Shown: positions 44,230 through 63,714, counted from the stretch's first letter. The stretch: 64,000 nucleotides of DNA from Haloarchaeobius sp. HME9146 (GCF_025399835.1 NZ_JAODVR010000001.1:2542001-2606000); one strand, 5' to 3'. The notes: generated from the letters alone by a model not told the origin. Numbers and translations are program-made.

Positions 44230-46308
44230 ATGAAAATAAGCTATCAGACGACCGAGGACCCAACTGGTGTGGTCATCAAAGACCACGTGAAGCAGCGTCA
44301 GGTTAGAGTAGTGACTGATCGAGATGTTGTGCCAGAAGTGAGTAGTACGTCCTCATTTAAATACCCGGTCGACGAGGCATTCACGATTAGGGCCAAGCGG
44401 TTGTCCCTTCGGCAATCACCGTGGGTGTATCTCCGAAGTTCAGACGGCGAGTACGACCAAACGATACGTACCCACGAGTCGATAGAACTTGAAGCCGGAT
44501 ACTACAGTTTAGATTTCACTACTCCGGTGAAAATATACGCGCGTTTCTCGGACGGTGCCTCGATCTCGAAAGGGATGGAAACGTTCCAAATCGAATTCTC
44601 GGAACCAACGGATATCGAGTTCGGTGTACGCTCCTACCACAAACGACCGGCCGGTTCGATTACAACTACGGGAGAGCCTGCCGATTTAATGTCCGCCATC
44701 AGTACTCTCTCTTCCTCTCTTAAAACCATGTCCTGCGAACGGTCATATCCCACTCTCAGAGGTTATCCTCCACGAATCGAACTTGGAGACGAACTACGCA
44801 TCCCAGATCAGTTCGAACGCCCAAAAACGGGGATAGAGTTCATCGTTCCTCCTCAACTTGATTACCTCTTCTCTGCAGCCCCGCTCACGTACTATTTGGG
44901 AGCAGAGCTCGTTCCCGGGCGCAGTCCTCGACTCGTCACTGACCATTTCGAATACCAGTTCGATACCAACGGAAGGTTTGAGACCGAGGTCAGTGAGTTA
45001 CTGAAACAGTTTTTGTTCCTCGATTGTGTGGTTCGGACAGAAGGATTGTACCAGGTCGACCTACACGAGCGCCATGAGGTCGAATCTTCTCTTCCCTTCG
45101 ACATAAAAAACATCTACGACTGGCCATTGCGTGAGCAGCTACCTTCCTATCTCGAGGTATCTTTCGACGAAATCGAACCTTACATCCCAAGATGGTGTCT
45201 CACCGCGTATCTCCCCCCTCGACCCAAAGACGTGAGAGCGATTCCACACATCGTGAACGAACTCGGGATCATCCGGGAGCCGCGCGCGCACGAGCGCGCC
45301 TTCGAGCGCTCTGTTTCTGAACCCGGGTCACCCAGGAGAGCGGTTAAGCCACAAAAGAGGAGTGTCGAAGATGAAGAAGAGCTACTGAATCTGGTAGAGC
45401 CGATAATAAGCGATGATTCGATCGAGCACGCGTGGTTCGGTGACGGTGTCCCTGTCGGAGCATCAAAATCGTCAGTAGAATCGTTCGAACACCAGCTTGA
45501 CGAGATAGAGAGGAACGACTCTATCGATATCACGGTCGTTTGTAACGACCCGAATATGATAGACGAGCAGGAAACTCTCGACCGGGTCTACGGTGACCGT
45601 GAAGAACATCCGTTCAGTGTGACTACGTTCTTCGGCGTCTCGAAGCAAAAACTGGCCGAAATCCTACAAGAAGGTCAGTCTGACCTCTTACACTACATCG
45701 GCCACGCCACCCCGGATGGACTACGTTGCAGCGACGGTGAACTGGATATCCGTGAGCTTGACGCCGTGTCATTGAATGTATTTCTCCTCAACGCTTGTCG
45801 TTCGTTCGAACAGGCTGAAGCACTTGTAAAAAAAGGCGCGTACGGGGGCGTCGCGACGCTCGGCGATATAGTTAACGAGCATGCTGTGGAGGTCGGGCAG
45901 GCGATAGCGCATCTGCTAAACCTTGGCTTCCCTCTTCGAGCGACAGTTGAATTAGTGCACAAGCACGGCAGTATCGGACAGCGGTATATTATTGTCGGCG
46001 ACGGTTCCCTCGACATCGTACAACCCGATGCAGGTGCTCCGATGATAAGTTCGATTGAAAAAATCGAGAACGATGATTACGAACTCTCCATCCAGCTCTT
46101 CCCTACGAAATTCCAACAGATAGGAACGACCGTCACGCCACATTTGGATGATATTAAGAAGCACTTCTTACATCCGGGAACTATCGGAGGACTGACCATC
46201 AATAAGAGCCAGTTAATCGACTACTTGACCTGGAACAACTATCCATTTGATATGGGCGGCGAGATTAACTGGAACGAGACGCTCGGTGTCGTCCTCTTCG
46301 AGGACTAG
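44230..46308 (+). CDS. CHAT-domain (caspase-like) protein
   Basis: A 692-residue protein. The N-terminal 370 residues are beta-rich and of unknown family, with a basic linker near 355-380. The C-terminal part (about 430-610) is a CHAT domain: LLHYIGHATPDG with candidate catalytic His492, and LLNACRS with Cys523, then GGVATLGDIVNEHAVEVGQAI. CHAT proteins of the separase/caspase clan are proteases in known cases. No signal peptide. Codon use is clearly less GC-rich than in glpC, so the gene was probably acquired. It converges on the tiny membrane protein gene at 46350-46487, 41 nt away; no other defence genes are seen. Alternatives: a non-proteolytic scaffold. Confidence 0.75.
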   Translation: MKISYQTTEDPTGVVIKDHVKQRQVRVVTDRDVVPEVSSTSSFKYPVDEAFTIRAKRLSLRQSPWVYLRSSDGEYDQTIRTHESIELEAGYYSLDFTTPVKIYARFSDGASISKGMETFQIEFSEPTDIEFGVRSYHKRPAGSITTTGEPADLMSAISTLSSSLKTMSCERSYPTLRGYPPRIELGDELRIPDQFERPKTGIEFIVPPQLDYLFSAAPLTYYLGAELVPGRSPRLVTDHFEYQFDTNGRFETEVSELLKQFLFLDCVVRTEGLYQVDLHERHEVESSLPFDIKNIYDWPLREQLPSYLEVSFDEIEPYIPRWCLTAYLPPRPKDVRAIPHIVNELGIIREPRAHERAFERSVSEPGSPRRAVKPQKRSVEDEEELLNLVEPIISDDSIEHAWFGDGVPVGASKSSVESFEHQLDEIERNDSIDITVVCNDPNMIDEQETLDRVYGDREEHPFSVTTFFGVSKQKLAEILQEGQSDLLHYIGHATPDGLRCSDGELDIRELDAVSLNVFLLNACRSFEQAEALVKKGAYGGVATLGDIVNEHAVEVGQAIAHLLNLGFPLRATVELVHKHGSIGQRYIIVGDGSLDIVQPDAGAPMISSIEKIENDDYELSIQLFPTKFQQIGTTVTPHLDDIKKHFLHPGTIGGLTINKSQLIDYLTWNNYPFDMGGEINWNETLGVVLFED

Positions 46309-46705: not shown

Positions 46706-47635
46706 TCAGGCGTACTCGAAGTCCTCGGTCACGTAATCGACCCCGAGGACCAACACGCCACCGATCAGCGCGATACCCACGATGGCAGCCATCGATTCCC
46801 CCGAACTCAGATCGCCCTCGTCGAGGATGTCCACGAGCGGGAGTCGAAGCCCGCCCACCATGAGGCTCACCAGGAAGGTCAGCGTCGCCTCGCGGTAGTT
46901 GTCGAGTGCCCAGTCGATGATACGGGACATCGAGAGCAGGCCGAGCGCCATCCCGGTACAGAACGTGACGACCACCACGCCCGACTCGGCGACGGGGCCG
47001 AAGTCACCGCCGCTGGCGAGCGACAGCAGCCCGTCGACGAAGCGTTTCAGCGTCCCGGTCATGTACTCGTACTGCTGGAGGATGACGAGGAAGAACGACC
47101 CAGAGACGCCCGGCAAGACCATCGCCGAGACCGCGATAGCTCCCGAGACGAAGACGACCGGCGTCGAGTGCCCGAGCGCGTTCGACGGAATCATCGTCAC
47201 GCCGGCCGCGATGATGACGCCAGCCGCGCCGACGAGCAGTCGGCGGGGTGTCGAGACGTCGACCTCCTGGTAGAGGACGACCGCAGAGGCCGCGATGAGT
47301 CCGAAGAAGAACGCGGCCACCAGCGCGGGGTACTGCTGGATGGCGGCGTGGAGGACCCGGGAGAGGGTGATGACGGCCGTCGCGATACCGAGGCCGAGGA
47401 CGAGCAGAAACGGTGCGTCGACGCGGTAGAAGAGCTCGCGGAGGGCGGCCCGACCCGACTCCTCGTGCACACGAAGGACGTGTTGGAGGTCACGCGGGTC
47501 GAACGCGGTGATGGCCTCTATGAGCCGTTCGTAGATGCCGGTGATGAGCGCGATGGTGCCGCCAGAGACACCGGGGACGGTGTCGGCAGCGCCCATCATG
47601 AACCCCTTCAGGTAGACCGCGAATGACTCACGCAT
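46706..47635 (-). CDS. DUF368 membrane protein, polyprenyl-phosphate transporter candidate
   Basis: A 309-residue membrane protein with eight or nine helices and two copies of the family signature: ADTVPGVSGGTIALITGIYE near residues 18-37 and LPGVSGSFFLVILQQYE near 170. In bacteria DUF368 proteins (PopT) were shown to return undecaprenyl phosphate across the membrane. Archaea use dolichyl phosphate for N-glycans. This gene lies 47 nt downstream of aglB in the same direction, so a role in recycling the carrier released by AglB is a strong inference. Confidence 0.85.
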   Translation of the reverse strand: MRESFAVYLKGFMMGAADTVPGVSGGTIALITGIYERLIEAITAFDPRDLQHVLRVHEESGRAALRELFYRVDAPFLLVLGLGIATAVITLSRVLHAAIQQYPALVAAFFFGLIAASAVVLYQEVDVSTPRRLLVGAAGVIIAAGVTMIPSNALGHSTPVVFVSGAIAVSAMVLPGVSGSFFLVILQQYEYMTGTLKRFVDGLLSLASGGDFGPVAESGVVVVTFCTGMALGLLSMSRIIDWALDNYREATLTFLVSLMVGGLRLPLVDILDEGDLSSGESMAAIVGIALIGGVLVLGVDYVTEDFEYA

Positions 47636-47682: not shown

Positions 47683-50600
47683 TTAGGCTGCGCGGGCGAG
47701 CGTGCCAGCCTCAGTCCGGACGAGTCGCGGCTGGTCTTCGTCGGCAGCGGATTCGGATTCGGAGCCGCTGGCCGCGTCTGTACTCACCGTGCTGTTCGAG
47801 CTACCGGTTGCGGCGGAGAGTTCGACGGTGATGGGTTCGCCGTCCTCGGTCATGATGGCCGATTCGGGCACCGCCACGGTCCCGGTCTCGTTAGAGTCCT
47901 CGACCGTGATGGTGTATTCGCCAGTCGCCTCGACGACGGTGTCGGTGCTCCCGTCCTCGACGGTCAGGGAGTCGTCGGTCGCGTACGGCACCGTGATCTC
48001 GAAGTTACCCTGGTCGTCCGTCTGGACCGTTTGCGTGTAGTTGAACGTCCGGTTGGTCGTCTGGGACTTGAGCTGGACCTTCGCGGTCACGTTCGTCGCG
48101 CTGGAGACGTCCGCCTGGCCGGCAACCGTCGCGCCGGGGACGCGCTCGTAGGTCTTGACGACCGATTCGACGCTCGTGTCGTACACGTGTACCTGCGGGC
48201 TGAACTGGTACTGCAGCAGTTGCTGGATGTTCAGTGCGCGGTTGACCGCCGCCGCCTGCCAGCGACCGTTCTGCTGGACCGCGAGGGACGCGAAGCCGAC
48301 CTGCGAGGGGTTCTCGTGGACGAGCCGGTAGTGCTCCAGCCCGTTCGCGTCGTCGAAGTACAGCCGCGACAGCATCGTCCGCTCGTACTGCTCACCCATG
48401 CCGGGCAAGACGACGGACGAGTTGTTGATGTTGACCTGCTTGTTGGTGTAGTAGGTCTGTGGGTCCGGCCCGGTCCAGGTAGCGATGGCACCGAACTTGC
48501 TGCTCGCCATCTGGTAGTCGATCATGACGTACCGGGTGTCCTCACTGGCCTGCTGGTCGTTCTGCTGGTCGACGAGTCGCTGGAGGTCCTCGTTCGAGAG
48601 CTGGTCGACGGGCTTGTCCGCCTGGTCGATGTTCGGCAGTGCCTCGAGCAGGAGGTTGGCGTGCGTCTCGTTCTGCGCGAGCAGGTAGTCGGACGCCGCC
48701 TTCGCGTTGTGCTGGAACGGGTTGGCGACCGGGATACGCTCGCCTTTCACCGTGATCCAGTGCCCGTAGTCCCACCAGGACATCACGCCGTACGCGCCTT
48801 CGGGGTACGCGAAGTCGTCCTGGTTCTCGTACGTCTCGTAGTACCCGAGTTCGTTGTTCGCACCGCCGTACTTCCCAGGTGCTGGCGTGCTGTTTCGCAT
48901 CCAGTCCGTGCTGTTGTCCCAGAGCATGACCGATCCGGGACCCATGCTGTCTGCCTGGGCGTCGACGGTCGTTGAGGTCATCGCCAGCACCGGCGTCAGT
49001 GGCATGACGACGAGCATGATGACCGCCACGATGGACATGACCTGATATGGCTCGACGTCGATATCGTCGGTCGAAACGTCCGGGATGCCGACGACCTGGA
49101 CGATGCGGCCGATGAAGAAGCCGTTCAGGACGGCCACACTCACGACGAAGTAGTAGTTGAACCGCACCTGCGTCATCGCCATGAGGAACATGAACGTCGA
49201 CCAGACGAGGACGAACAGGAGTTCGGAGCGATACTTGTCGCTCGAGTAGAGGTCCCAGACGAGCCAGACGAACGCGGCCGCGGCGACCACGTAGGTGAGC
49301 CCGTACTGTGCGCCCATGAACTGGGTCAGCGTCTGGACGAACGGCTCACCGGCACCGACGACCGCCTGCGCTTCGCCGATGGTCAGCGTGGTGTCGCTCT
49401 GTGCGAAGGCGATGGTGCGGTTGACGTTCCGGATGAGGATACCGAACGCGCCGGGGGCGACGAGTTTGAGTGCACCCAGTCCTGCCACGAGAATCGAGGA
49501 GATCGCCACCGGATAGTAGGCTTTCTTCTCGGCTTTCTCGTCTCGCGTGTACGCGACACCGCCGAAGAGCCCACCGAAGACGAGGATGAGCGCGAACGGG
49601 AGCCCGAGGAAGGGGAGTCCGGCGACCGCTGCGAGGATGATAGCGAAGAACAGGAGTCCGAAGGAGGCGAGGGAGGCGTTTCGCAGCGTCTCCGTCTCCA
49701 TCGTATCCCACGTCCGTGCCAGCCAGGCCATGAACGCACAGCCTGCAGCGAGGCCGAGGCCGAGTCCGACCTGCAGTGGCGAGAGTGAGGTCACGCCGAG
49801 ACTGAACTGGTCGATGCTCAGGAGGACGGTGAATGCGGAGGTAACACCGACGACCACACCGGTGAACGCGAGGTGGTCCGGGCTGCGCCCCGCGATGTAC
49901 TCGATGGAGAGCGCGATGGCGAAGAACACTCCGAGGATGCCGAGGAGCACCGCTGCGGGCGGCCAGACCCACATGTAGAGGCCAGCCGAGATACCGGCGA
50001 GGGCGGCCCACTTGCCCGGCGTCCGCATCGCATCCCAGTCGCGGTCCGCGACGAGCTCGTAGACGGGTTTCTCACGCTCGGCCGAGCGGAGCGCCACCAT
50101 GATGCCGAGCACGGTAAGCGCCTGGAACAGGACCTCCGCGACGTGGTGGTCGGAGAAACCGGCCGTTGACCGACGGAGGAACACGCCCGGAAGGAGCGCG
50201 AGGACCAGCGCAGCAGTGACACCACCGAAGCGCCCAGCGACGCGCTTGCCGATGAGGTACGTGGGAATCGCCACCAGCATCCCGAAAACGGCCGGCGCGA
50301 CCAGAAGTGTCATCGCGATAGTGTGCTGGGAGGGGTCGCCGAGGCCGACGATGAGTGCACCAGTCGCGACGAGTTGGTCGAACAGCGTCCCGAACTGGTC
50401 CGCACGAACCCCTGTCGGGAACTCGCTGTAGACGTCGTACGGCATCGTCGTCGGCCAGTGGCGAACCGTATAGGAGACCTGACGAAGGTGGTACCAGGCG
50501 TCGTTGCCAGCGTAGAACACCTCGCCGTTTCGTGTGAAGTTATCTAGTGGTTGCAGCCGCACCCAGAGCATGAAGGCCATGATCAGCCCCACACTGGGCA

Positions 50601-50685
50601 CGTGATACCAGCGTTTGAAAAGCTCGATGACGGAGTCCGAACGGACCTGTTCGGATTCCGTCTGCTCGCCAGTCGACGTGCTCAT
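47683..50685 (-). CDS. aglB: Oligosaccharyltransferase AglB
   Basis: AglB (1000 residues from the ATG at 50685) moves the glycan from dolichyl phosphate to Asn in N-X-S/T on the outer face. It has 13 or so N-terminal helices, with the first acidic metal-binding loop in AGNDAWYHLR. The catalytic WWDYG is at residues 637-641 (SWWDYGHW), and a long C-terminal extracellular domain ends in an Ala/Ser/Glu-rich tail. An upstream ATG at 50745 would add 20 residues. The TATA-like CTTATT at 50711-50719, 26-34 nt before 50685, favours the shorter form. Followed by DUF368 and divergent from an AglG-like transferase. Confidence 0.95.
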   Translation of the reverse strand: MSTSTGEQTESEQVRSDSVIELFKRWYHVPSVGLIMAFMLWVRLQPLDNFTRNGEVFYAGNDAWYHLRQVSYTVRHWPTTMPYDVYSEFPTGVRADQFGTLFDQLVATGALIVGLGDPSQHTIAMTLLVAPAVFGMLVAIPTYLIGKRVAGRFGGVTAALVLALLPGVFLRRSTAGFSDHHVAEVLFQALTVLGIMVALRSAEREKPVYELVADRDWDAMRTPGKWAALAGISAGLYMWVWPPAAVLLGILGVFFAIALSIEYIAGRSPDHLAFTGVVVGVTSAFTVLLSIDQFSLGVTSLSPLQVGLGLGLAAGCAFMAWLARTWDTMETETLRNASLASFGLLFFAIILAAVAGLPFLGLPFALILVFGGLFGGVAYTRDEKAEKKAYYPVAISSILVAGLGALKLVAPGAFGILIRNVNRTIAFAQSDTTLTIGEAQAVVGAGEPFVQTLTQFMGAQYGLTYVVAAAAFVWLVWDLYSSDKYRSELLFVLVWSTFMFLMAMTQVRFNYYFVVSVAVLNGFFIGRIVQVVGIPDVSTDDIDVEPYQVMSIVAVIMLVVMPLTPVLAMTSTTVDAQADSMGPGSVMLWDNSTDWMRNSTPAPGKYGGANNELGYYETYENQDDFAYPEGAYGVMSWWDYGHWITVKGERIPVANPFQHNAKAASDYLLAQNETHANLLLEALPNIDQADKPVDQLSNEDLQRLVDQQNDQQASEDTRYVMIDYQMASSKFGAIATWTGPDPQTYYTNKQVNINNSSVVLPGMGEQYERTMLSRLYFDDANGLEHYRLVHENPSQVGFASLAVQQNGRWQAAAVNRALNIQQLLQYQFSPQVHVYDTSVESVVKTYERVPGATVAGQADVSSATNVTAKVQLKSQTTNRTFNYTQTVQTDDQGNFEITVPYATDDSLTVEDGSTDTVVEATGEYTITVEDSNETGTVAVPESAIMTEDGEPITVELSAATGSSNSTVSTDAASGSESESAADEDQPRLVRTEAGTLARAA

Positions 50686-50710
50686 TGTACGGGAAAAGTC
50701 TGAAGCGACG

Positions 50711-50780
50711 AATAAGCCTTGTGTAATCCGTTCATGTGTAGACACCTTCCCTTCACCCGATTTTCAAAACCCTTATTCGC
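50711..50780. promoter_or_regulatory. Paired divergent promoters for aglB and the AglG-like gene
   Basis: The two promoters share a core: on the minus strand GGCTTATTCGTCGCTTC (about 50720-50704) before aglB, on the plus strand CCCTTATTCGCGCTTC (about 50769-50784) before the transferase. Each lies 20-35 nt before its start codon. The likeness suggests joint control. Confidence 0.5.
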
Positions 50781-50802
50781 GCTTCCATGATTGGTGCGAA
50801 CA

Positions 50803-51741
50803 ATGAAAGTATCCGTCGTCGTCTGTACCTATCCGACGGACCGCTACGAGTGCTTCCACGAGTGCGTCGAAAGTGTGCTCGAACAGACATACGAAGACCT
50901 CGAGGTGGTACTGGTTATCGACGGAAACGAGGAAGTGTACGAGTGGACTGTCGATGATTTCGGTGACGTGCCTAATCTCCGAATCCACTGTAACGACGAG
51001 AACCGTGGTATCTCCTACAGCCGGACGAAAGGTGCGGAGCTGGCCGACGGTGAGATTGTCGCGATGATCGACGACGATGCCACTGCGGAACCGGACTGGA
51101 TAGAGACGCTGGTCGGGACGTACGAGAGTACGGATGCACTGGCAGTTGGTGGAGACGTTAGGCCAGACTGGCAAGTCGAGAAACCGGATTTCTTTCCCGA
51201 CGAGTTCTATTGGCTCGTCGGCTGCGTCGAACCAGGGTTCGCCGAGGATGGTGAAGAAGTCCGGAATACGTATGGGTCGAACATATCCTACCGGCGCGAT
51301 GTGTTCTTGAACGTCGGTGGGTACGACCCGAACACGGGTCGGAAGGGCGAGAAACACCTCCAGGCGCACGAAGCCCCCGTCGGAATTCGGATGCTAGAGG
51401 AGTACGGGAGAGGGATGGTATTCATTGAGGACGCGGTCGTCCACCACAAACTCTTCGACTACCGGGGCGACTACAGGTGGCTGGTCAGCCGGTCGTTCTG
51501 GCAGGGATACTCGAAGCGAGTCATGGACCTGCTGTACCCCAACGCACCCGACGACAAGAGCGCGTACCTGAAGCAGCTTATGACGCAGTACGTGCCGAAA
51601 CGGATTGCCGAACTCGTTCGGTCCCCGTCGATGCCGAAGGTGAAACAGTTGGTCACGATCTTCGTCTTCACCGCTGTCGTCGGACTCGGCTACCTGTACG
51701 CGATGGTGACGCCTGACGTCGTCGAGAAGGCGAACGCGTAA
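50803..51741 (+). CDS. GT2 glycosyltransferase, AglG-like
   Basis: A 312-residue family 2 glycosyltransferase. The GT-A fold opens with VSVVVCTYPTDRYECFHEC. The metal-binding Asp triplet MIDDD lies at residues 90-92. A region with VGGYDPNTGRKGEKHLQAHE follows, and a C-terminal hydrophobic helix (residues about 286-305) anchors it on the membrane. Length and layout match Haloferax AglG, which adds a hexuronic acid to dolichyl-phosphate-linked sugar; the sugar added here is unknown. Start chosen at the ATG at 50803, 25 nt after a TATA-like CTTATT. A decayed copy follows directly. Confidence 0.85.
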   Translation: MKVSVVVCTYPTDRYECFHECVESVLEQTYEDLEVVLVIDGNEEVYEWTVDDFGDVPNLRIHCNDENRGISYSRTKGAELADGEIVAMIDDDATAEPDWIETLVGTYESTDALAVGGDVRPDWQVEKPDFFPDEFYWLVGCVEPGFAEDGEEVRNTYGSNISYRRDVFLNVGGYDPNTGRKGEKHLQAHEAPVGIRMLEEYGRGMVFIEDAVVHHKLFDYRGDYRWLVSRSFWQGYSKRVMDLLYPNAPDDKSAYLKQLMTQYVPKRIAELVRSPSMPKVKQLVTIFVFTAVVGLGYLYAMVTPDVVEKANA

Positions 51742-51787: not shown

Positions 51788-52190
51788 GACTCATTCCCCG
51801 CGGAGTTTTACTGGCTCTACGGCTGTGAAGAGAAGGGCCTCAGTCAGCACATGAAGGAGATGTAGAAAATAAACGGATCCAACAGCTCGCTCTGTCGTGA
51901 CGTGCTATTGAACGTCGGTGGATTCGACGAAAAGGTTGGGCGAAAAGGTGACAAGCACATCCAGGCGCACGAGAGTACAGTGGGTGCCAGGCTGCAAAAG
52001 GAATACCTGCGTAGTGTGATTTATAATAAGGGAGCGGTGGTACATCACAAACGATTCGAGTACCGTGGTGACTTCAGATGGTTAGTGAGCCGGTCCTTCC
52101 GGCAGGGCTACTCGAAGCGCGTCATGGGCCACCTGATTCCCGATGCGTCTGCGGACAAGAACGAGTATCTCAAATATATCGCTCTTGTCA
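51788..52190 (+). pseudogene. Decayed second copy of the AglG-like glycosyltransferase
   Basis: Translated in one frame, this stretch aligns with residues about 124-280 of the intact neighbour: FPAEFYWLYGCEE, then a TAG stop at 51863-51865, then LLNVGGFDEKVGRKGDKHIQAHE and FRWLVSRSFRQGYSKRVM. The first 120 residues with the catalytic Asp triplet are absent, and similarity fades after about 52190, where the frame runs on to 52423 without family sense. A tandem duplication that has lost function. Confidence 0.8.
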
Positions 52191-53067
52191 CGCAGGTTTC
52201 TGGTCGGGGAGAGTTGATACTGCGAAAGCGTAGCGGTCGAGACGATGCGCATGCGTCACCCGATATGTTCCCATTTGAACTGCTAAGATCTGAGGAGGAC
52301 ACCACATCAAGGCGTCCCAAAAGACAAGTTGACAGTATATCTCAGACCGTTCCAACTCCGACGACGAATCTTCGAAAGCCTAGTCAAGAAGCACTCAAAG
52401 TGGTTTTTCGAGCAGTTCTCTGACTCACCAGCAATGTACTTCACAAGAGCGTTTATTTTAGGGACCGATTCTGAAGAGACGAGTAAAATTCTATCGGCGT
52501 GGCATCGAGCGATGTCGAAACCACGGGTAGATACGACGGGTCGCACGCGACTCAGTATTGGAGGCACAACTATCATGCTCACCACTTTTGTCTTGTTATT
52601 TTTTGTACCAAGAAGAGGCGTAGCGACCGGCTTTGAAATTCTCAGTATACGGATTACTCTCCCTGGAGCCGGATTTTAACAAAATACTCTCACGATGACA
52701 TGGCAAAGTTGTGATTGGTTGTCTTCAGCTACCGCCTGAGAGGGGTGAAAATAGAAGATGCGTTGAAAAGCGTCATATTGAAGACTGCGACAAAGAGCTC
52801 AAGATTTTCAGGAATGATTTATTCACAGTGCACTTTGTGTTGTACTTGCCTCCTACAACAAGTATGTAGTAACTGCGATTAATACGAGGTGGTGACCGCT
52901 CGTACACGGGGTTGTTCGTACAGGTCTGGACCGTCAAGCTCTCGGTTCGAAGATGTAGTCCCCATGCCAGTCCAGTTCAATAACGGCGAGTCACCGTAAC
53001 ACCGCACAACATCTGTCCAGATACGTCTGGAAATTTTTTAATAAACCTCGGGCCAAGTAGCAGCCTA
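52191..53067. other. Debris-like AT-rich stretch
   Basis: No credible gene in almost 900 nt. A 117-codon frame at 52329-52679 has a plausible first half (LRRRIFESLVKKHSKWFF) and a meaningless end, and no family could be assigned; it may be a fragment of a lost gene. The rest has stops in all frames and many A/T runs. Confidence 0.45.
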
Positions 53068-54069
53068 TCAAGGCTTCTCGAGGTCTCGTGACGGGAGGTT
53101 CCTATTTGATTGGGTGTAATAGAAGTACACAGAACCGAACACCACCATCGACACGATGGTGATCATTCGATCTACGAGAACAAATGCGAGACCATCGCTT
53201 GCAGCGATGCCGAAGAACACGAGCGTTGATGTGGTAATCGCCTCTACGATGCCGATGCCAGCAGGCGTAATTGGTAGTCCGGTAAGAACCGTAATGAGAA
53301 TCGCGATGAGAAAGATATTGAGAAGACTCATATTAATTCCTACAGACATCGTGACGAGCCCAATTCGAACCACGTTCATCGACCAGATGACGATGCTCAA
53401 CAAAAGAAACACCAACGTACCGCTGAATGTTGTCGTTGCAGTAAATCCCCTCAAAAACTCCACAGATATATCTCTTACCTTCTGAGGGACCAGTTCATGG
53501 TAAGATAAAATCACATAGAATGCCGTTACACTCATACCAACGATGCTGACACCTAGTGCGGCAGTGCCGGAAAGGCGCGATAATATGAGTCGTTCAAATA
53601 ACGATGCCGATCCGATGAGAAGACCGAGCAGGAGAAGCGTGATATCCGTTGTTCGTTCTACCGCGACGGTACCAATGTGAGCACTCTTACTTTCGCCGTA
53701 TTCTTCCGATGCAGAATAACAGCGATAGAGGTCTCCACTTTTTGCAGGAAGAATCGTATTGAAGAACAGACTCAAGAACATCAGTCTGTTTGCTGAACGT
53801 AGTTCCGGCTCCAACCCCATCCCTGATAACAAAAATCGCCACCTGATTGTACGGAATAAAATTGTCGCGTAAAACACGATGAGGGATAGAACCCAGATTT
53901 TTAAATTAGCTGATTTAACCTGTTCTATTGCAATAAATATGTCGACAGTCGTCCAAAGGTACACTGTAGAAAATGCCAAAACCGCTAGTGTTACTCCATG
54001 TCTCACGAATGGATGTGACCCATAGGACTGAATTCGATTCATCAAAGGTCTGCTCATACGTTCACGCAC
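53068..54069 (-). CDS. Flippase-like membrane protein (UPF0104 / AglD C-terminal type)
   Basis: A 333-residue membrane protein with about eight helices, of the lysylphosphatidylglycerol-synthase-TM/UPF0104 family. Typical marks are FRTIRWRFLL, FFNTILPAKSGDLYRCY (the conserved PA..GD..R) and ITPAGIGIVEA (the P-x-x-G-x-G-x-x-E motif). In haloarchaea this domain forms the C-terminal half of AglD and occurs alone in glycan clusters, where lipid-sugar translocation is suspected. Low GC. Transcribed after the sulfatase gene (27 nt gap). Confidence 0.85.
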   Translation of the reverse strand: MRERMSRPLMNRIQSYGSHPFVRHGVTLAVLAFSTVYLWTTVDIFIAIEQVKSANLKIWVLSLIVFYATILFRTIRWRFLLSGMGLEPELRSANRLMFLSLFFNTILPAKSGDLYRCYSASEEYGESKSAHIGTVAVERTTDITLLLLGLLIGSASLFERLILSRLSGTAALGVSIVGMSVTAFYVILSYHELVPQKVRDISVEFLRGFTATTTFSGTLVFLLLSIVIWSMNVVRIGLVTMSVGINMSLLNIFLIAILITVLTGLPITPAGIGIVEAITTSTLVFFGIAASDGLAFVLVDRMITIVSMVVFGSVYFYYTQSNRNLPSRDLEKP

Positions 54070-54096: not shown

Positions 54097-55398
54097 TTAT
54101 AAGTCACTTTTTGAGGCCACATCGAATCCTGCCTTCACGATGTCCGTTGATTCCTTATCGGTTTGAGTGCTAATCGCCGCAATCCTTGCTAGTTGCTCAT
54201 GAAGTACGTCGTTATCTATCTCCGCATCTTCTCCTTTCTGTAGGTCATACAGTTTCGATCCTTGATTAGTCTGGATGTACTTGTACCGGCGACCGCGTAC
54301 TGCGATCTTTTCTCCGTTCATTGATTGCGAGGTTACGAATTTCTCCCCGTATGCTGTCTCGTTCCGGCCGACAGCTTCGTCAACGACAATTTTCGAAAGG
54401 GATCGGAGAGATACCGGTTCCTCCACTCTTCCCGCCCGTTTACTATTGATAATGAGCAGTGGGACATGTATATTCTCTTCGTATAAGTACGAGTGATACT
54501 CTTGTTCTCCATTCTGGCCGAACGCTCCTCCGTGATGTTCATACGTTCCATGTTCACCAAATGACTCTCCGTGGTCAGATGTGAAGATGATTGTTGGGTC
54601 GTCGTCTGCTAAGTCCCTGGTGATTCGGTCTACGAACTCATCGACGTACTTGATAGAGTCACAATACGACTGTACCAAGTTTTGGTGTGCTCGCTTACCC
54701 AGCGGGGGTTCGTAGTTCTTGTACCGGAGTTTCCAGTTTGCGTAGTAGAGATCCGGCTTGGAAATTGATCGGTGGTCCTCTGATGGCAAATACGGGTGAT
54801 GGGCATCCATCAGGAATATCCAGATGAAGTAAGGTTCGTCGGACTGATTTGTCCATTCAATAATCTCGTTGTAGAAATCACTCCACGGCTTGAATGCCTC
54901 TTCTCGTTGGAACCAGTTCATCATAATCCGAACTGGCATATAGAGTCGACTTCCGCTGAATGTACCTTTTAAAAAACGTTCATATAGCTTATTTCGAGAG
55001 CCGTCCAAGAAATCTTGATACTTATCAAAACCATTTCCGTATCCGAAGTACCGAGACGTGAATGGGTTAGGGGTGAATGCTGCAGTCCGATATCCAAGCG
55101 ACGACATGCGCTGTGCAAGATTCGTCCGGGCCTCCATGTGCGGTGCAATCTGGTCGATTCGCTCGTCTATCGTGGTCTGACTGTTCGGTCGAGGAACTGG
55201 GTAGTGGCCGGTGAGGATTGCAGGAACGGATTCCGACGTGCTCGGTCCCGGAGCAATCGCATTCTCGAAGACTAAACCATCTTCTGCGAATGTGTCCAAT
55301 GTAGGTGTCGTGGGTTTCTCGCACCCCATAAACCCACAATGGTCTGCTCGGAGACTATCGACCGTTACAAGAACGATATCGTCTAATTCTTCATCCAT
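54097..55398 (-). CDS. Sulfatase-family hydrolase or transferase
   Basis: A 433-residue member of the alkaline-phosphatase superfamily. Metal site 1 is VTVDSLRADH with Asp14. The usual C/S-x-P-x-R nucleophile region reads PGPSTSESVPAILTG, so Ser or Thr would be the nucleophile rather than a formylglycine made from Cys. FTSDHGESFGEHG gives the second metal site. No signal peptide or helix. It may act on sulfated or phosphorylated glycans. Unlike the three relatives at 60-63 kb it lacks the final LGY tail; the short gene directly upstream ends with one. Confidence 0.82.
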   Translation of the reverse strand: MDEELDDIVLVTVDSLRADHCGFMGCEKPTTPTLDTFAEDGLVFENAIAPGPSTSESVPAILTGHYPVPRPNSQTTIDERIDQIAPHMEARTNLAQRMSSLGYRTAAFTPNPFTSRYFGYGNGFDKYQDFLDGSRNKLYERFLKGTFSGSRLYMPVRIMMNWFQREEAFKPWSDFYNEIIEWTNQSDEPYFIWIFLMDAHHPYLPSEDHRSISKPDLYYANWKLRYKNYEPPLGKRAHQNLVQSYCDSIKYVDEFVDRITRDLADDDPTIIFTSDHGESFGEHGTYEHHGGAFGQNGEQEYHSYLYEENIHVPLLIINSKRAGRVEEPVSLRSLSKIVVDEAVGRNETAYGEKFVTSQSMNGEKIAVRGRRYKYIQTNQGSKLYDLQKGEDAEIDNDVLHEQLARIAAISTQTDKESTDIVKAGFDVASKSDL

Positions 55399-55751: not shown

Positions 55752-57098
55752 ATGCAACGGCTGTTATCTCAGCGACGTTCAAACTCGTGGCTGATAGGAA
55801 CTGTTTGTCTATTACTAATAATACAGTTCATCTCGGTTGCTAGGACTGTAACTTCAACCTCAAAAACGGAGATTACACCCGATGTTTTGTATTACCTTCA
55901 TTTCGGGTGGTCTATCACGCAAGGGGTAACTCCTTATGTTCATTTTTGGGACCCTAAGCCGCCGCTTGTTCACGAATTGAGTTTTCTCATGGCAACTATC
56001 ACTGGGGAAAACATGTTATTGTTGTATATATTCAGTATCGCAGTGACAGGGCTGGCAGCCGTTCTCTGCGGTGTACTGGTTGCACTATTAACATTCGAAC
56101 TAACAGATAGTGGTTCTGCTGCAGTATTTTCTGCCGCAGCTCTTTATTCATTCGCAGGGTTCCACATCACGGCCTCACAAGGTTATCGCCCAAAATTCTT
56201 CGCCGCACTTTTTGGACTGCTCGGAATCTATCTTCTGCTAAAAGAGCGGAATTTCTCGGCCGGGCTTTTTACTGCGATGAGTGCCGCTTTCTGGCAACTT
56301 GCAATCATATATGTGCTCGTTGTAGCCGGTTACCTAATCTTTCACCGGGATAAAACGTCACTGCTGTGGTTAGTAGCTGGAGCTCTTACAGCTGTTATCC
56401 TCGTCGTCTTTCCATTTTTCATCTGGTGGGATGTCACCGCGTTAGTTGGCGGTGCGATTATCGCACCCCTGTCTTCATCTGATAGCTGGTCACTGCTTGA
56501 GCTCCTCACTCGATTATACAATGTTCCACTTCGTTTAAAATACGCTACTATAGTCGTCGTATTCGCGATTCCTGCCACGGTTACTGCCGTTGCTGATGAC
56601 GAACGAGATCCGGTTATTGCCGTGGCTGGGACTGCGTGGTTCGCACTTCAAATACTGTTCCTCGACTTCGATGGCACAGTTGACCTCGTTGTTTGTTTCC
56701 CTTTCGTAGCAATCTTGATGGGCTATTATTTTTCTTCATTAAGGATTAACCGACAGCAAACTCTTGCACTCGTTTTCGCTGTCTGTTTACTTGTGAGTGG
56801 GATTGGTTCAGGTGGTCTGGGACTTGTATTTGGTTCCGTCCAGACGAACGACACAGGAATTGATCAGACCGACCGGGGTATCTACGGAGCCATCGGTACG
56901 CTCGCAAAACAACAGATGGGTGTCTCAGACACCACGAATCAACCAGACGAGTCTGTCCGAGACAGTGTTCCCTCCATTTACACGCTTTATTGGGAAAAGC
57001 AACTCCCAGATCGGTGCCACTATTGGATTAACAAGCAATCAAAAACGTATATCGAACGAACGGGGACGGACCCGACCCAGGAGGTTTGCACCTACTAA
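55752..57098 (+). CDS. GT-C membrane glycosyltransferase (GT39/ArnT-like)
   Basis: A 448-residue membrane protein with ten to twelve helices. The first outer loop has acidic and aromatic residues: TPDVLYYLHFGWSI, then HFWDPKPPLVHE, the DPKPPL segment of ArnT/PMT-type enzymes that use polyprenyl-phosphate sugars. In Haloferax, AglS of this superfamily adds the last mannose from dolichyl-phosphate-mannose outside the cell. AT-rich with frequent TTA/ATA codons, so transferred. Its stop overlaps the UbiA start (TAATG), and the three genes that begin here are one operon. Confidence 0.75.
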   Translation: MQRLLSQRRSNSWLIGTVCLLLIIQFISVARTVTSTSKTEITPDVLYYLHFGWSITQGVTPYVHFWDPKPPLVHELSFLMATITGENMLLLYIFSIAVTGLAAVLCGVLVALLTFELTDSGSAAVFSAAALYSFAGFHITASQGYRPKFFAALFGLLGIYLLLKERNFSAGLFTAMSAAFWQLAIIYVLVVAGYLIFHRDKTSLLWLVAGALTAVILVVFPFFIWWDVTALVGGAIIAPLSSSDSWSLLELLTRLYNVPLRLKYATIVVVFAIPATVTAVADDERDPVIAVAGTAWFALQILFLDFDGTVDLVVCFPFVAILMGYYFSSLRINRQQTLALVFAVCLLVSGIGSGGLGLVFGSVQTNDTGIDQTDRGIYGAIGTLAKQQMGVSDTTNQPDESVRDSVPSIYTLYWEKQLPDRCHYWINKQSKTYIERTGTDPTQEVCTY

Positions 57099-58000
57099 TG
57101 TCCTATTCATATCCTCCATTGACGCTAATTAGAGGACTCGTCTACGAGGTCCGGCCTTGGCAGTGGTACAAGCAGGGTGTAATGTTCCTTGGCATCGTCT
57201 TCTCGAAAAATTTGTTCGAAATGAACAAAATGCTGACGCTAATCGTTGGTGCTGCTTCGTTCACAGCAATTGCGGGAGCAACCTACATTTTCAACGACAT
57301 CAGCGACATTGAGGAGGACCGCGCTCATCCACGGAAGCAGCATCGGCCAATTGCCAGCGGTGATCTTCCGGTTTCAATCGCAGCGGTGGTTGCTGGCTTC
57401 CTTGTCGTTGGCGGCTTGACTGCCGCATACTGGGTTGGAACACTCTTTTTCGGCATGCTTATTATATACATTGCCCAAAACGTGTTATACTCACTGTATC
57501 TCAAGCGAGTGGCGCTCGTTGACGTACTCGTTATCGCTTTCGGGTTCGTCCTTAGAGCAATCGCTGGAGTCTTTGCGATTGATGCAAAACTGAGTCCTTG
57601 GCTGATTGTAAGCACATTTCTGTTGGCATTAGTACTTGCGCTCGGAAAACGGCGAGGAGAAATCGAAAACGTCGAAAATATCAACCAAACCCGACCTGCA
57701 CTGCGTGTTTATATGAGAGGCTCGATTGATAATTTGCTTTTAATTACTATGTCGAGTCTTTTGATGGCATATTCACTTTATACGTTCTCCGGGACGAGCT
57801 CAATGATGATGCTTACTATTCCTTGTGCGTTTTTTGGCGTTTTCCGATATCACTATTTGTTGGAGTCAAAAAATATTGCGGGTAAGCCAGAATATTTGCT
57901 CACCGACCCTCAAACCATACTTAATATGTTAATTTGGGTTGCGCTGTCAATCATAGTTCTTTATGAGGTACCACAACTGATTCTATCGTATCTGGTATGA
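57098..58000 (+). CDS. UbiA-family polyprenyl-phosphate phosphoribosyltransferase
   Basis: A 300-residue UbiA-fold membrane enzyme with about eight helices. The first Asp-rich motif NDISDIEEDRAHPRKQHRPIA binds Mg-diphosphate. RPWQWYKQGVMF near the start and DVLVIAFGFVLRAIAG...ALGKRRGE are specific to the branch of decaprenyl-phosphate phosphoribosyltransferase, which moves ribose-5-phosphate from PRPP to decaprenyl phosphate in mycobacteria. In an archaeon dolichyl phosphate would be the acceptor. Overlaps genes on both sides (TAATG before, ATGA after). Confidence 0.85.
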   Translation: MSYSYPPLTLIRGLVYEVRPWQWYKQGVMFLGIVFSKNLFEMNKMLTLIVGAASFTAIAGATYIFNDISDIEEDRAHPRKQHRPIASGDLPVSIAAVVAGFLVVGGLTAAYWVGTLFFGMLIIYIAQNVLYSLYLKRVALVDVLVIAFGFVLRAIAGVFAIDAKLSPWLIVSTFLLALVLALGKRRGEIENVENINQTRPALRVYMRGSIDNLLLITMSSLLMAYSLYTFSGTSSMMMLTIPCAFFGVFRYHYLLESKNIAGKPEYLLTDPQTILNMLIWVALSIIVLYEVPQLILSYLV

Positions 58001-58635
58001 AACTGTACGACCTCCAAGTACACACAGATGCGTCGCCTTGTTCGCGGATATCTCCCGAAAAACTGGTCGAGGGCGCAGTTGATGCAGGCCTCGATGGTAT
58101 TGCGGTCACGGACCACGATACGATAAAAAATGTTAAATTCGTCGAGCAAGCTGCTCCCCCGAGTCTAGATATTATTCCTGCCGCAGAAATAACGACTACT
58201 CAAGGACATCTACTTGCATTAGGGATTTCTGAGGTACCTCCACAGACCGACCCAATTAGTGTTATCGAGCATGTTCATGACCAAGGTGGGGTTGCTGTAC
58301 TTTCACATCCTTTCGATACATTTCGCCAGTATTACAATCAGGATTTGGAAGAGATAGCCGCCCACGTAGACGGCGTCGAAACCTGTAACTCTCGATGTAT
58401 TATGCCGAGGTTCAACAGAGAAGCAAAGCAATTTGCAGAAGAATATGATCTCGCCCAAACAGGCGGGAGTGACGGTCACTTTCAACTGGAGCTAGGTCGG
58501 GCATATACCCTTTGTCAGGGTGACCCACTAGATGCGATTCGGAACGGAGATTGTGCTCCCAGAGGTCGCGGTAGTTATTTATCTGGTCATATCGCGACGA
58601 AGGTTCACCAGAGCCTAACTCGAGTCGGGATTTAA
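57997..58635 (+). CDS. PHP-domain phosphoesterase
   Basis: A 212-residue PHP protein with metal ligands in LQVHTDASP, AVTDHDTI, LSHPFDT and GGSDGHF, so the trinuclear site is complete. Soluble. Relatives are histidinol phosphatase and nucleoside 3',5'-bisphosphate phosphatase. It starts within the end of the UbiA gene (ATGA), and the natural guess is that it removes the 5-phosphate of the lipid-linked phosphoribose made there. Known function of the family is broader. Confidence 0.85.
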   Translation: MKLYDLQVHTDASPCSRISPEKLVEGAVDAGLDGIAVTDHDTIKNVKFVEQAAPPSLDIIPAAEITTTQGHLLALGISEVPPQTDPISVIEHVHDQGGVAVLSHPFDTFRQYYNQDLEEIAAHVDGVETCNSRCIMPRFNREAKQFAEEYDLAQTGGSDGHFQLELGRAYTLCQGDPLDAIRNGDCAPRGRGSYLSGHIATKVHQSLTRVGI

Positions 58636-60160: not shown

Positions 60161-60300
60161 ACACTGAAGGTCCCCTATCTGAATAAAAAAGGCTTCTGAC
60201 CACCGCGCGCACGCACTGTCTTCTGTCGTGCTCTTCCCTGGGAGTTCAAGAACTGACCGATGCGTATTTCAGAGGCCCCCGATTGATTCATGCTAGACGC

Positions 60301-61227
60301 ATGTATTCGGTAGCCCAACTCAAACGGGGGTTACGCGCGCCCTCCCTCTTCCTCAGAGAACTCAACTATCTCTACCACACCCGTTTGAAAACTCGCGATT
60401 ACAACACTGCCGGTGTGGATCTGATGACACAGGACTGGGATTACCTGTGTCTCCTCGATGCGTGCCGTTACGACATGTTCGAGGACCAGTCGACGCTGCC
60501 CGGTACCCTCGAATCCCGTCAGTCTCGAGGGTCCAACACGGTCGAGTTCCTTCAAGCAAACCTCGCGGACCGAGAGCTACACGACACGGTTTACGTCACG
60601 GCGAACCCCCAGTACCGACGACACTTCGACGAGCTCGATGCAGAGTTCCACGCGGTCATCGATGTCTGGCAAGACTCCGGGTGGAACGAAGTGTACAATA
60701 CGGTGCTTCCGGAAACGACGACCGAATACGCGCTGGAAGCTGCCCGAGAATATCCTGACAAACGGTTGCTAGTGCACTACATGCAACCGCACTACCCGTT
60801 CATCGACGATGAGACCGACTTCGACAAACGGCACCTTCACAACGAGATGGACGACACCATCGACTTCTGGCACGAGATAATGTTCGGACAGCTGGCGCTC
60901 ACGCCGTCCGATATCTGGCCACTGTATAAAAAGACGCTCGCAGCGGCTCTCCCGCACGTCGAAGAGTTCATCACAACGCTGGAAGGCAAGCACGTCGTCA
61001 CGGCAGACCACGGTAACTTGGTCGGTGAACGGGCATCGCCCGTTCCGGTCACTGAGTGGGGGCACCCGAGAGGAATCTACACGGAAGAACTTGTGAAGGT
61101 ACCATGGCATGTGTACCAGTGGGGTGACCGACCAGAGATCACTTCCGAAGAGCCAATCGACCAAGCAGCTGGTGTCGAAGACGACACGACGATGGACCGA
61201 CTGCGGGACCTCGGGTACGTTCAATAG
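60301..61227 (+). CDS. Compact alkaline-phosphatase-superfamily protein 1
   Basis: A 308-residue protein with a metal site in LCLLDACRYDMF (Asp), a candidate nucleophile in RGSNTVEF, LVHYMQPHYPF, and VVTADHGNLVGE. The C-terminal end reads MDRLRDLGYVQ. It is shorter than sulfatases and has no signal peptide. Related to the 314-residue protein at 62770-63714. Possibly a phospho- or sulfotransferase or hydrolase acting on glycans. Starts at the ATG at 60301; the TTG-started extension adds six residues without support. Confidence 0.75.
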   Translation: MYSVAQLKRGLRAPSLFLRELNYLYHTRLKTRDYNTAGVDLMTQDWDYLCLLDACRYDMFEDQSTLPGTLESRQSRGSNTVEFLQANLADRELHDTVYVTANPQYRRHFDELDAEFHAVIDVWQDSGWNEVYNTVLPETTTEYALEAAREYPDKRLLVHYMQPHYPFIDDETDFDKRHLHNEMDDTIDFWHEIMFGQLALTPSDIWPLYKKTLAAALPHVEEFITTLEGKHVVTADHGNLVGERASPVPVTEWGHPRGIYTEELVKVPWHVYQWGDRPEITSEEPIDQAAGVEDDTTMDRLRDLGYVQ

Positions 61228-61299: not shown

Positions 61300-62694
61300 A
61301 TGGCGCAACGGAACATCGTACTCGTCGTTCTGGACTCGGTCCGGAAGGACTTCTTCGACGAGTACGCCCCGCGAATTCGAAGCAGATCCGACATTTCCTT
61401 CGAGCAGTGTCGGGCAGTGAGCTCCTGGAGCACACCGAGTCACGCGAGCATGATTTCGGGGGAACTTCCGTCGGTGCACGGTGTACACACCCATTCTCCA
61501 AGTTTCAGTTCTTTGCCGCTTGAGCGGACATTCTTCGACGAGCTGGACGAAGCGACGACGATCGGAGTCAGTGCGAACGAGTTCGCGAGCTCGTCCTACG
61601 AGTTCGATCGTTACTTCGACCGGTTCGTCGAGACCTCGGCGACGCACTGGTATCCAGATGGCGCAGACCCACTGGAAGCCCTCGACGAAATCGATTCGGA
61701 AGGGGCGTCGAAGCATCTCCAACTTCTGCGGTCGATTCTCGGGCATCCGAACACGAGTAAGAGTCTGGTGAACCTCCTGGTCGCTGCCGCACACAGTCTC
61801 TCGGAGAGCAGGCCGGTACCGAAACCGGTCGACGACGACTTGACCCCCGTCCTCCGCGCGGCAAAGCGAGAAGTGCGTGACGTAGATTCTCCCTACTTTC
61901 TCTTCTTGAACATAATGGAGGCCCACATGCCGCTACAGCACGTGGTTGGGTTCGATTCCGAGCTGCACGACGCTCCGTGGTCCTGGAGTTCCTCCTCGAA
62001 GGGCGTCTGGGAACTCATGGATGGTGACCACGAGGACTACTGGGAGACCCGGGAAGGCGTCTACGCGGCCGCAATCGATTATATCGACCGCAAGGTGGCT
62101 TCCTTCGCGGAGTGGCTCGACGCGAGAGACGATTGCGAGACGACCATCATCGTCACTTCAGATCACGGAGAGAACCACGGCAGGGAGTCAGAGGGCGGGC
62201 TCGTCAACCACAAAAGTAGCCTGTCGGAAGGATTGCTCCACGTCCCTCTCGAGATTATCAACCCGCCGAAGGACCTGGAGTCGGTCACCGACTTCGTCTC
62301 GCATGCGAAGCTGCCCAGATTGATCACGGGAATCGCGAACGGGTCCGTCCCAGACGTCACTGAAGAAGTGATAACGGCCGAACTGGTGGGACTCAGCGCA
62401 GGCCCTGAACCCCCCGAGGACTACGATTACTGGGATCGTGCGATGAGATGCGCGTACCGGAGCTCGGAGAAGGTCGTCTGGGATTCCTTAGGCGAGACAC
62501 AGTGGTTCGAGTTGGAACCCGAAACAAGTTCCACGGAAACGAGAGTCGAGTCGACCGATGGCATCCCGGACTGGGCTACTGACCGATTCGCAACCGAAAT
62601 AGTGGATTTCAAGCGGGAAGCAGTCTCCAATGCCTCGAAACCGGACGTTAGTGGGTCGACGGAGCAACGTCTGAAGAACCTCGGATACCTATGA
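61300..62694 (+). CDS. Sulfatase-type enzyme with LGY tail
   Basis: A 464-residue member of the alkaline-phosphatase superfamily: LVVLDSVRKDFFDEY, WSTPSHASMISGELPSVHG (Thr/Ser in place of the sulfatase Cys), NIMEAHMPL, and VTSDHGENHGRE. The end reads EQRLKNLGYL. TATA-like CTTATATC at 61269-61276, about 25 nt before the ATG. The middle (about 125-180) is less conserved and may set specificity. Its substrate is probably a charged group on a surface glycan. Confidence 0.82.
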   Translation: MAQRNIVLVVLDSVRKDFFDEYAPRIRSRSDISFEQCRAVSSWSTPSHASMISGELPSVHGVHTHSPSFSSLPLERTFFDELDEATTIGVSANEFASSSYEFDRYFDRFVETSATHWYPDGADPLEALDEIDSEGASKHLQLLRSILGHPNTSKSLVNLLVAAAHSLSESRPVPKPVDDDLTPVLRAAKREVRDVDSPYFLFLNIMEAHMPLQHVVGFDSELHDAPWSWSSSSKGVWELMDGDHEDYWETREGVYAAAIDYIDRKVASFAEWLDARDDCETTIIVTSDHGENHGRESEGGLVNHKSSLSEGLLHVPLEIINPPKDLESVTDFVSHAKLPRLITGIANGSVPDVTEEVITAELVGLSAGPEPPEDYDYWDRAMRCAYRSSEKVVWDSLGETQWFELEPETSSTETRVESTDGIPDWATDRFATEIVDFKREAVSNASKPDVSGSTEQRLKNLGYL

Positions 62695-62769: not shown

Positions 62770-63714
62770 ATGAGTCTACTGAAGCGTGCGCTCTCCCGGT
62801 TCAGTGAGAACGTGAAGGACGACGGTCTCACGGGAGTGAAACTAACCGCTTACGACTATTACGTCGGTGCCCTCATGATGAGTGGCCTGTACTCGAGGGT
62901 CGATTCGACCAACGTGTTCGAGGAGGAGTGGGACGTCCTCGTCCTCCTCGACTGTGCACGACCCGAATTCATCTCGGAGGTCGAAGACGAATACGAGTTC
63001 CTCGAGTCGGGGGCTTCCGAATCGACACTTGTCTCCGTCGGGTCGTCGTCTGAACATTGGCTCGAGAACACCTTCGTGGACACGTACGCTGACGAGATAT
63101 CCGAGACAGCGTACGTGACCGCAAACCCGAACTCCGAGCGGACGGTCTCGAGTTCCCAGTTCGCCCTCCTGGACGAAGTGTGGCGCGACGAGTGGGACCC
63201 AGACCTGCAGACGATTCCAGCGGAGGCAGTGACGGACCGTGCGATCGAAGCAGCACGCGAGAACGATTTCGATCGGCTCATCCTTCATTACATGCAACCC
63301 CATCCACCGTTCGTCCCCGATATGGACATTGACGCGATGCGGGTGACTCCACCGGATAAAGAGGAAGCTGGCAGCAATATGCGAGACCTTGTGTTGAAAG
63401 ACGGGTACGAGCCGAGCACGCTGTGGGACGCACACGTGGAGAACCTGCGATACGTGCTGGACAGTCTGGAGGTACTCCTCAGGAGTCTCGATGCCGATTC
63501 GGTCATCATCTCGGCCGACCACGGGCAAGCGTTCGGCTCCTGGGGGCTGTATGGCCACCCGAGCAGGGTCCCATTGCCAGCGCTCTACACTGTCCCGTGG
63601 GTCGAGGTATCGGCGACCGATACGGGAGAGTACGTCCCCGACCCTGAACGTCGTGCCACACAACGTGACGAGGACCTCGACTCGAAATTAGAAGCGCTAG
63701 GGTACAGGACGTAG
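62770..63714 (+). CDS. Compact alkaline-phosphatase-superfamily protein 2
   Basis: A 314-residue paralogue of the 60301 gene. LVLLDCARPEF gives the first metal Asp, VGSSSEHWLENTF the nucleophile region, LILHYMQPHPPFVPD, and IISADHGQAFGSWG the second metal site. Ends DSKLEALGYRT. A TATA-like TTAATATAC lies about 27 nt before the ATG. The CARPEF/CRYDMF difference near the first metal site sets it apart from its paralogue. Confidence 0.75.
   Translation: MSLLKRALSRFSENVKDDGLTGVKLTAYDYYVGALMMSGLYSRVDSTNVFEEEWDVLVLLDCARPEFISEVEDEYEFLESGASESTLVSVGSSSEHWLENTFVDTYADEISETAYVTANPNSERTVSSSQFALLDEVWRDEWDPDLQTIPAEAVTDRAIEAARENDFDRLILHYMQPHPPFVPDMDIDAMRVTPPDKEEAGSNMRDLVLKDGYEPSTLWDAHVENLRYVLDSLEVLLRSLDADSVIISADHGQAFGSWGLYGHPSRVPLPALYTVPWVEVSATDTGEYVPDPERRATQRDEDLDSKLEALGYRT

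Follow-up and report, generated by a model that had tools for sequence, protein, structure and literature searches.

In the literature that was found, polyprenyl-phosphate pentofuranose donors have been described in bacteria only. The closest precedent for the locus analyzed here, absent from an earlier note on this DNA, is provided by the three-component extracytoplasmic pentofuranose systems, such as that encoded by ORF12 to ORF15 of Citrobacter youngae O1/O2 (Kelly et al. 2024, PMC11127046). These combine a UbiA-type polyprenyl phosphoribose synthase with a linked 5'-phosphatase activity (a fused HAD phosphatase in Citrobacter), a MATE flippase, and a GT-C glycosyltransferase of family GT136, while an optional SDR epimerase, present or absent between relatives, sets the sugar. 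In Citrobacter this epimerase, ORF13, converts undecaprenyl-P-ribose to the xylose form, and the known systems draw on unrelated families for the phosphatase slot (PMC11127046). The mycobacterial decaprenyl-P-arabinose (DPA) pathway uses a synthase of the same UbiA branch, Rv3806c, followed by 5'-dephosphorylation, epimerization, flipping, and GT-C use, and leads to cell-wall arabinan; its downstream components (phosphatase Rv3807c, epimerase pair DprE1/E2, flippase Rv3789, and the GT-Cs Emb/Aft) belong to families other than those found here.

Among archaea, comparison can be made with AglD/AglR/AglS of Haloferax volcanii, where a PF15971 GT-C adds one last sugar outside the cell from a DolP-sugar and the agl locus also carries AglB and AglG. 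AglS adds the terminal mannose of the Haloferax N-glycan. The Haloferax donor is made by a GT2 DolP-mannose synthase from a nucleotide sugar, whereas at the locus described below it would be made from PRPP by a UbiA protein and a phosphatase.

This locus lies in a 64,000-nucleotide stretch of the Haloarchaeobius sp. HME9146 genome, referred to here as the window. Its operon is best read as a variant of the bacterial pentofuranose pathways, both the mycobacterial and the Citrobacter type, with dolichyl phosphate expected as the carrier and with a PHP protein, probably an LPG_synthase_TM protein, and PF15971 or PMT_2 GT-Cs as the archaeal components; neither a MATE flippase nor a GT136 GT-C was found in the conserved archaeal block. 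We put the probability that the operon makes and uses dolichyl-phosphate-linked ribofuranose at roughly 0.6. No paper on an archaeal UbiA/PHP pathway was found in the open-access literature searched.

Organization of the operon

Three consecutive open reading frames on the plus strand encode an AglS-like GT-C membrane glycosyltransferase (positions 55752 to 57098; 448 aa), a putative UbiA-superfamily polyprenyl-phosphate phosphoribosyltransferase of the DPPR synthase branch (57098 to 58000; 300 aa), and a PHP-family phosphoesterase (57997 to 58635; 212 aa), the last proposed to be a dolichyl-P-ribose-5-phosphate 5'-phosphatase. Their Pfam matches were Mannosyl_trans4 (PF15971, 9e-29), UbiA (PF01040, 8e-25), and PHP together with PHP_C (PF02811 and PF13263), respectively. 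The coordinates confirmed the overlaps on which an operon had previously been proposed. At the first junction (TAATG), the last A of the GT-C stop codon TAA (57096 to 57098) is the A of the UbiA start codon (ATG at 57098), and at the second (ATGA), the PHP start codon (ATG at 57997) overlaps the end of UbiA at 58000.

The UbiA protein as a probable phosphoribosyltransferase

The top NCBIfam match of the UbiA protein was decaprenyl-phosphate phosphoribosyltransferase (NF008977, 1e-65), with a score of 222 bits that is slightly under the curated cut-off of 234; three methanogen-side relatives exceeded this cut-off. Sequence matches in the PDB were solely to structures of M. tuberculosis Rv3806c (8j8j, 2e-29). 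In the cryo-EM work on Rv3806c, residues R22, K28, Y70, N73, D77, K87, R90, Y138, K143, and K191 contact PRPP, Mg, or the lipid phosphate (PMC10994848). All ten are identical in the window protein, where they correspond, in that order, to R19, K25, Y63, N66, D70, K80, R83, Y131, K136, and K184, with Q135 and Y157 of Rv3806c replaced by N128 and F150. The ten residues are also retained in nearly all of 38 other archaeal and bacterial UbiA proteins compared, K143 being Arg in two of them. The loop II motif NDxxDxxxD (N66, D67, D70, and D74) is invariant in 22 haloarchaeal UbiA proteins and the same in Rv3806c, and the window protein also retains the catalytic motif that was mutated in Citrobacter ORF15.

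Seven other UbiA proteins encoded by the same genome scored 1 to 25 bits and do not have this set of contact residues. In a phylogenetic tree they fell on the opposite side of one branch from the window protein, so that the latter was not placed with quinone- or lipid-type paralogues. As this was a quick tree with very long paralogue branches and 77% support for the split, the contact residues are given more weight than the branch. A placement with quinone or lipid prenyltransferases is rejected on the tree and the ten contact residues, and the assignment made in the earlier note, to the PRPP:polyprenyl-phosphate phosphoribosyltransferases, is strongly supported by the same residues and by the separation from the paralogues. 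With a predicted PRPP and lipid phosphate site of the Rv3806c type, the window protein very probably has DPPR-synthase-type activity.

The GT-C protein and its donor

The GT-C protein scored 100.8 bits against PF15971 (gathering threshold of 33). Its predicted model (pLDDT of 74) had ArnT, GPI-MT-I, ALG6, and ALG9 as the best PDB folds, at weak Foldseek E-values that indicate a generic GT-C, and a sequence search of the PDB gave no match. It belongs to the family of AglS, a DolP-mannose mannosyltransferase, and its nearest relatives in the tree are not linked to UbiA and stand apart from a UbiA-linked clade of Natrialbaceae. In eight Natrialbaceae loci, which carry this UbiA/SDR-linked clade, a PF15971 GT-C is found beside SDR and UbiA genes. 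PMT_2-type GT-Cs adjoin the SDR or flippase gene in other relatives, and PMT_2 or PF15971 neighbors occur in many loci, while the window is alone among the loci compared in having a PF15971-type GT-C that overlaps UbiA. A GT-C near UbiA-PHP is a recurrent but exchangeable part. The co-occurrence of three genes anticipated by the earlier note was recovered for UbiA-PHP and for a nearby GT-C of the same fold class; the exact trio with a PF15971 GT-C was rejected as a conserved operon, the conserved unit being UbiA-PHP-flippase plus SDR, with GT-Cs that vary.

These findings bear on which sugar the GT-C protein transfers. UbiA and PHP might make lipid-P-ribose while the adjacent GT-C is an ordinary AglS-type transferase of DolP-mannose or another hexose, carried in the same imported glycan cassette, and a different GT-C uses the pentose. 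Its PF15971 membership, its grouping in the tree with UbiA-unlinked GT-Cs, and the fact that a comparable GT-C overlaps UbiA nowhere else in the loci compared are all consistent with this arrangement; however, the start/stop overlap implies co-translation of GT-C and UbiA, the eight Natrialbaceae loci also place a PF15971 GT-C beside SDR and UbiA, and donor promiscuity is possible in GT-C enzymes (ORF12, PMC11127046). This arrangement is considered unlikely, though not negligibly so. Because the GT-C is of the AglS family and groups with UbiA-unlinked relatives, a pentose donor is read from the operon overlap itself, and DolP-mannose could be used instead. The earlier suggestion that the GT-C transfers the pentose is thus kept for its overlap with UbiA and weakened by its family and relatives; on balance, the window GT-C is favored as a user of the lipid-P-pentose.

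Coupling of PHP to UbiA

A survey of 293 genomes of the haloarchaeal order identified 32 copies of the window-type UbiA in 30 genomes. Its distribution is patchy, covering 13 of 87 genera, and four other genomes of the window's own genus are without it. Directly downstream of all 32 copies, on the same strand and within about 125 bp, lies a PHP gene of one distinctive subfamily, which is present in 31 genomes, 30 of them with UbiA (a naive hypergeometric value of 4e-40, with shared ancestry ignored). The linkage extends beyond the haloarchaea. In the methanogen-side class to which genome G312 belongs, 13 UbiA copies were found in 12 of 150 genomes, and, by our reading of their coordinates, 12 of the 13 are followed within 3 kb by PHP in the same orientation, about half of the pairs touching. 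A UbiA-PHP-flippase block occurs in genomes G312 and G295 and on one contig from Thorarchaeota, and with one gene inserted in G374. No PHP of the linked subfamily was found in the bacterial UbiA neighborhoods examined, and no other phosphatase was recurrently linked to UbiA in the loci compared.

Several loci depart from this pattern. Genome G168 (L031:5457-7069) carries linked-family PHP and flippase genes without UbiA, beside GT4 and GT2 genes. One UbiA match (G547:C2:4330654-4331532, L191) spans two stop codons, a TGA and a TAA, and is perhaps decayed, and other methanogen-side copies show one TGA.

The predicted model of the PHP protein (pLDDT of 92.8) has the PHP domain of RNase AM as its nearest PDB fold (7ug9, 5.7e-12), and its other fold matches are phosphoesterases that act on ribose phosphates. 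Across the aligned haloarchaeal sequences, residues H9, E64, H94, H104, D159, and H161 do not vary. At the metal site, the first His of the HxH motif is Gln (Q7) in haloarchaea, with a single HxH exception (L054), and position 71 is His in haloarchaea versus Glu in other archaea, which keep HxH. The subfamily signature HPFDxxR ... NSRC ... SDxH, TK is common to these archaea.

The invariant adjacency in haloarchaea and its recurrence in distant archaea lend good support to the earlier view of PHP as a phosphatase dedicated to UbiA. Its specificity cannot be read from its sequence; we infer that its substrate is the UbiA product, on which it probably acts as a 5'-phosphatase. It might instead be a regulatory or repair phosphoesterase, acting for example on PRPP-derived by-products, with dephosphorylation left to another enzyme, as nucleotides and RNA are the substrates of related PHP enzymes (7ug9 and 2yb1) and G168 has its PHP and flippase genes in the absence of UbiA. 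Against this stand the strict coupling to UbiA of proteins bearing the subfamily signature across archaeal classes, the lack of another recurrently linked phosphatase, and the use of unrelated families for the phosphatase slot in known systems, which together make such a role improbable.

Flippase-like and SDR partners

Apart from the window, 29 haloarchaeal loci were compared, and in 28 of them the gene directly after PHP encodes an LPG_synthase_TM flippase-like protein. With this protein as the putative flippase, most relatives have synthase, flippase, and GT-C in one locus. A protein of this linked family is a fairly likely candidate for the flippase. The flippase-like gene of the window (53068 to 54069, minus strand; PF03706, 6e-39) is a distant relative that lies in an AT-rich island on the strand opposite to the operon. 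Among five paralogues in the genome, its product was the best match to the profile of the UbiA-linked flippases (52 bits); at only ~25% identity to that family it was rejected as an orthologue, but it may substitute for the linked flippase as the candidate of the window module. Elsewhere in the same genome (L163:730-2589), a GT2 domain is fused to LPG_synthase_TM, which suggests a link between this domain and DolP-sugars.

In ~24 of 30 haloarchaeal loci, a gene next to UbiA and divergent from it encodes an extended SDR that has the motifs TGGxGFxG and YxxxK. Independently, the same SDR type is encoded immediately upstream of UbiA in the cyanobacteria Oscillatoria and Spirulina and in one Verrucomicrobiales genome. 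This agrees with ORF13 of Citrobacter, a proven SDR epimerase. Since no SDR orthologue was found in the window genome (best match, 28%), plain ribofuranose is predicted as the product of the window operon, by analogy with Citrobacter O1 versus O2. In three non-haloarchaeal archaea, a DUF362 gene lies within the UbiA-PHP-flippase block or directly next to it (L157:7611-8672, minus strand; L159:6095-7261, minus strand; L160:9607-10731, plus strand) and is a candidate redox or epimerase partner. From the gene set first proposed, UbiA and PHP stand; the LPG_synthase_TM and SDR partners, which alter the model, had been overlooked.

The agl locus and the proposed acceptor

Agl genes flank the operon on one side and additional glycosylation genes on the other; a Wzx-like gene lies farther off, outside the window (L062). 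To the left of the operon are AglB oligosaccharyltransferase (47683 to 50745, minus strand; TIGR04154, 1e-240, with STT3 and AglB domains), which marks an N-glycosylation locus, and AglG, the glucosyl-dolichyl phosphate glucuronosyltransferase (50791 to 51741, plus strand; NF041394, 515 bits against a cut-off of 440). The G+C content is 46 to 48% at 52 to 59 kb versus 58 to 70% across most of the region leftward. This dip and the agl flanks suggest that the AT-rich stretch is a swapped-in cassette for the terminal sugar of an N-glycan. On the strength of the agl context, the AglB-dependent N-glycan is tentatively proposed as the acceptor, at somewhat less than even odds. It is very improbable that the UbiA acceptor is instead a different isoprenoid lipid phosphate, such as a phosphatidic-acid-like archaeal lipid, giving a glycolipid and not a glycan donor: the acceptor is not legible from the UbiA sequence and archaeal lipid phosphates are, to our knowledge, all isoprenoid, but the lipid-phosphate residues K28 and K191 of Rv3806c are conserved, and both the neighbors (GT-C and flippase-like) and the agl setting speak for a lipid-P-sugar donor.

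Other genes of the region were also recorded. A fragment of a second AglG (51902 to 52423, plus strand; NF041394 positions 168 to 277 of 304) lies next to the intact AglG gene, on the border of the AT-rich island, and is likely an insertion remnant. Beside AglB is a gene for a VCA0040-like polyprenyl-phosphate transporter (46706 to 47635, minus strand), which possibly recycles dolichyl phosphate. A 692-aa open reading frame with no Pfam match (44230 to 46308, plus strand) lies in DNA of lower G+C content (about 52%) adjoining the agl genes. A gene for a protein of the sulfatase/alkaline-phosphatase superfamily (54097 to 55398, minus strand; PF00884, 7e-44) separates the flippase-like gene from the operon; sulfatase-superfamily genes also occur at 61300 to 62694 and 62770 to 63714, with a possible fourth relative, lacking a Pfam match, at 60283 to 61227.

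Proposed pathway and its implications

In the proposed pathway, UbiA would use PRPP to form dolichyl-P-ribose-5-P, from which the soluble PHP protein would strip the 5'-phosphate to give dolichyl-P-ribofuranose. In most relatives the SDR epimerase, absent from the window genome, would then convert the ribose to another pentose. The lipid would be flipped by an LPG_synthase_TM protein, encoded immediately downstream in relatives and perhaps at 53068 to 54069 in the window, and a GT-C, AglS-like in the window, would move the pentose outside the cell to a surface glycan, for which the AglB-dependent N-glycan is the leading candidate. Nothing direct on pentose in glycans of these organisms, including haloarchaeal N-glycans, was found in the open-access literature searched; the sole hint in the literature found came from GC-MS of a Natrialba exopolysaccharide, and these data are weak.

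Beyond the window, we lean slightly toward the view that several archaeal classes have their own dolichyl-phosphate-pentofuranose pathway from PRPP, with a PHP 5'-phosphatase, an LPG_synthase_TM flippase, and interchangeable epimerases (SDR in haloarchaea and possibly DUF362 on the methanogen side) and GT-Cs, which decorates surface glycans with ribose or epimers of ribose. If true, this would provide a source for archaeal pentoses and a function for this PHP subfamily, and for some LPG_synthase_TM proteins as DolP-sugar flippases. Pentoses would be predicted in the surface glycans of carriers, including Halococcus, Natrialba, Natrinema, Haloarcula amylolytica, and others. It would also mean that unrelated proteins can fill the phosphatase and flippase slots of a tuberculosis-type pathway, and haloarchaea would offer a nonpathogenic, genetically tractable place for studying such a pathway.
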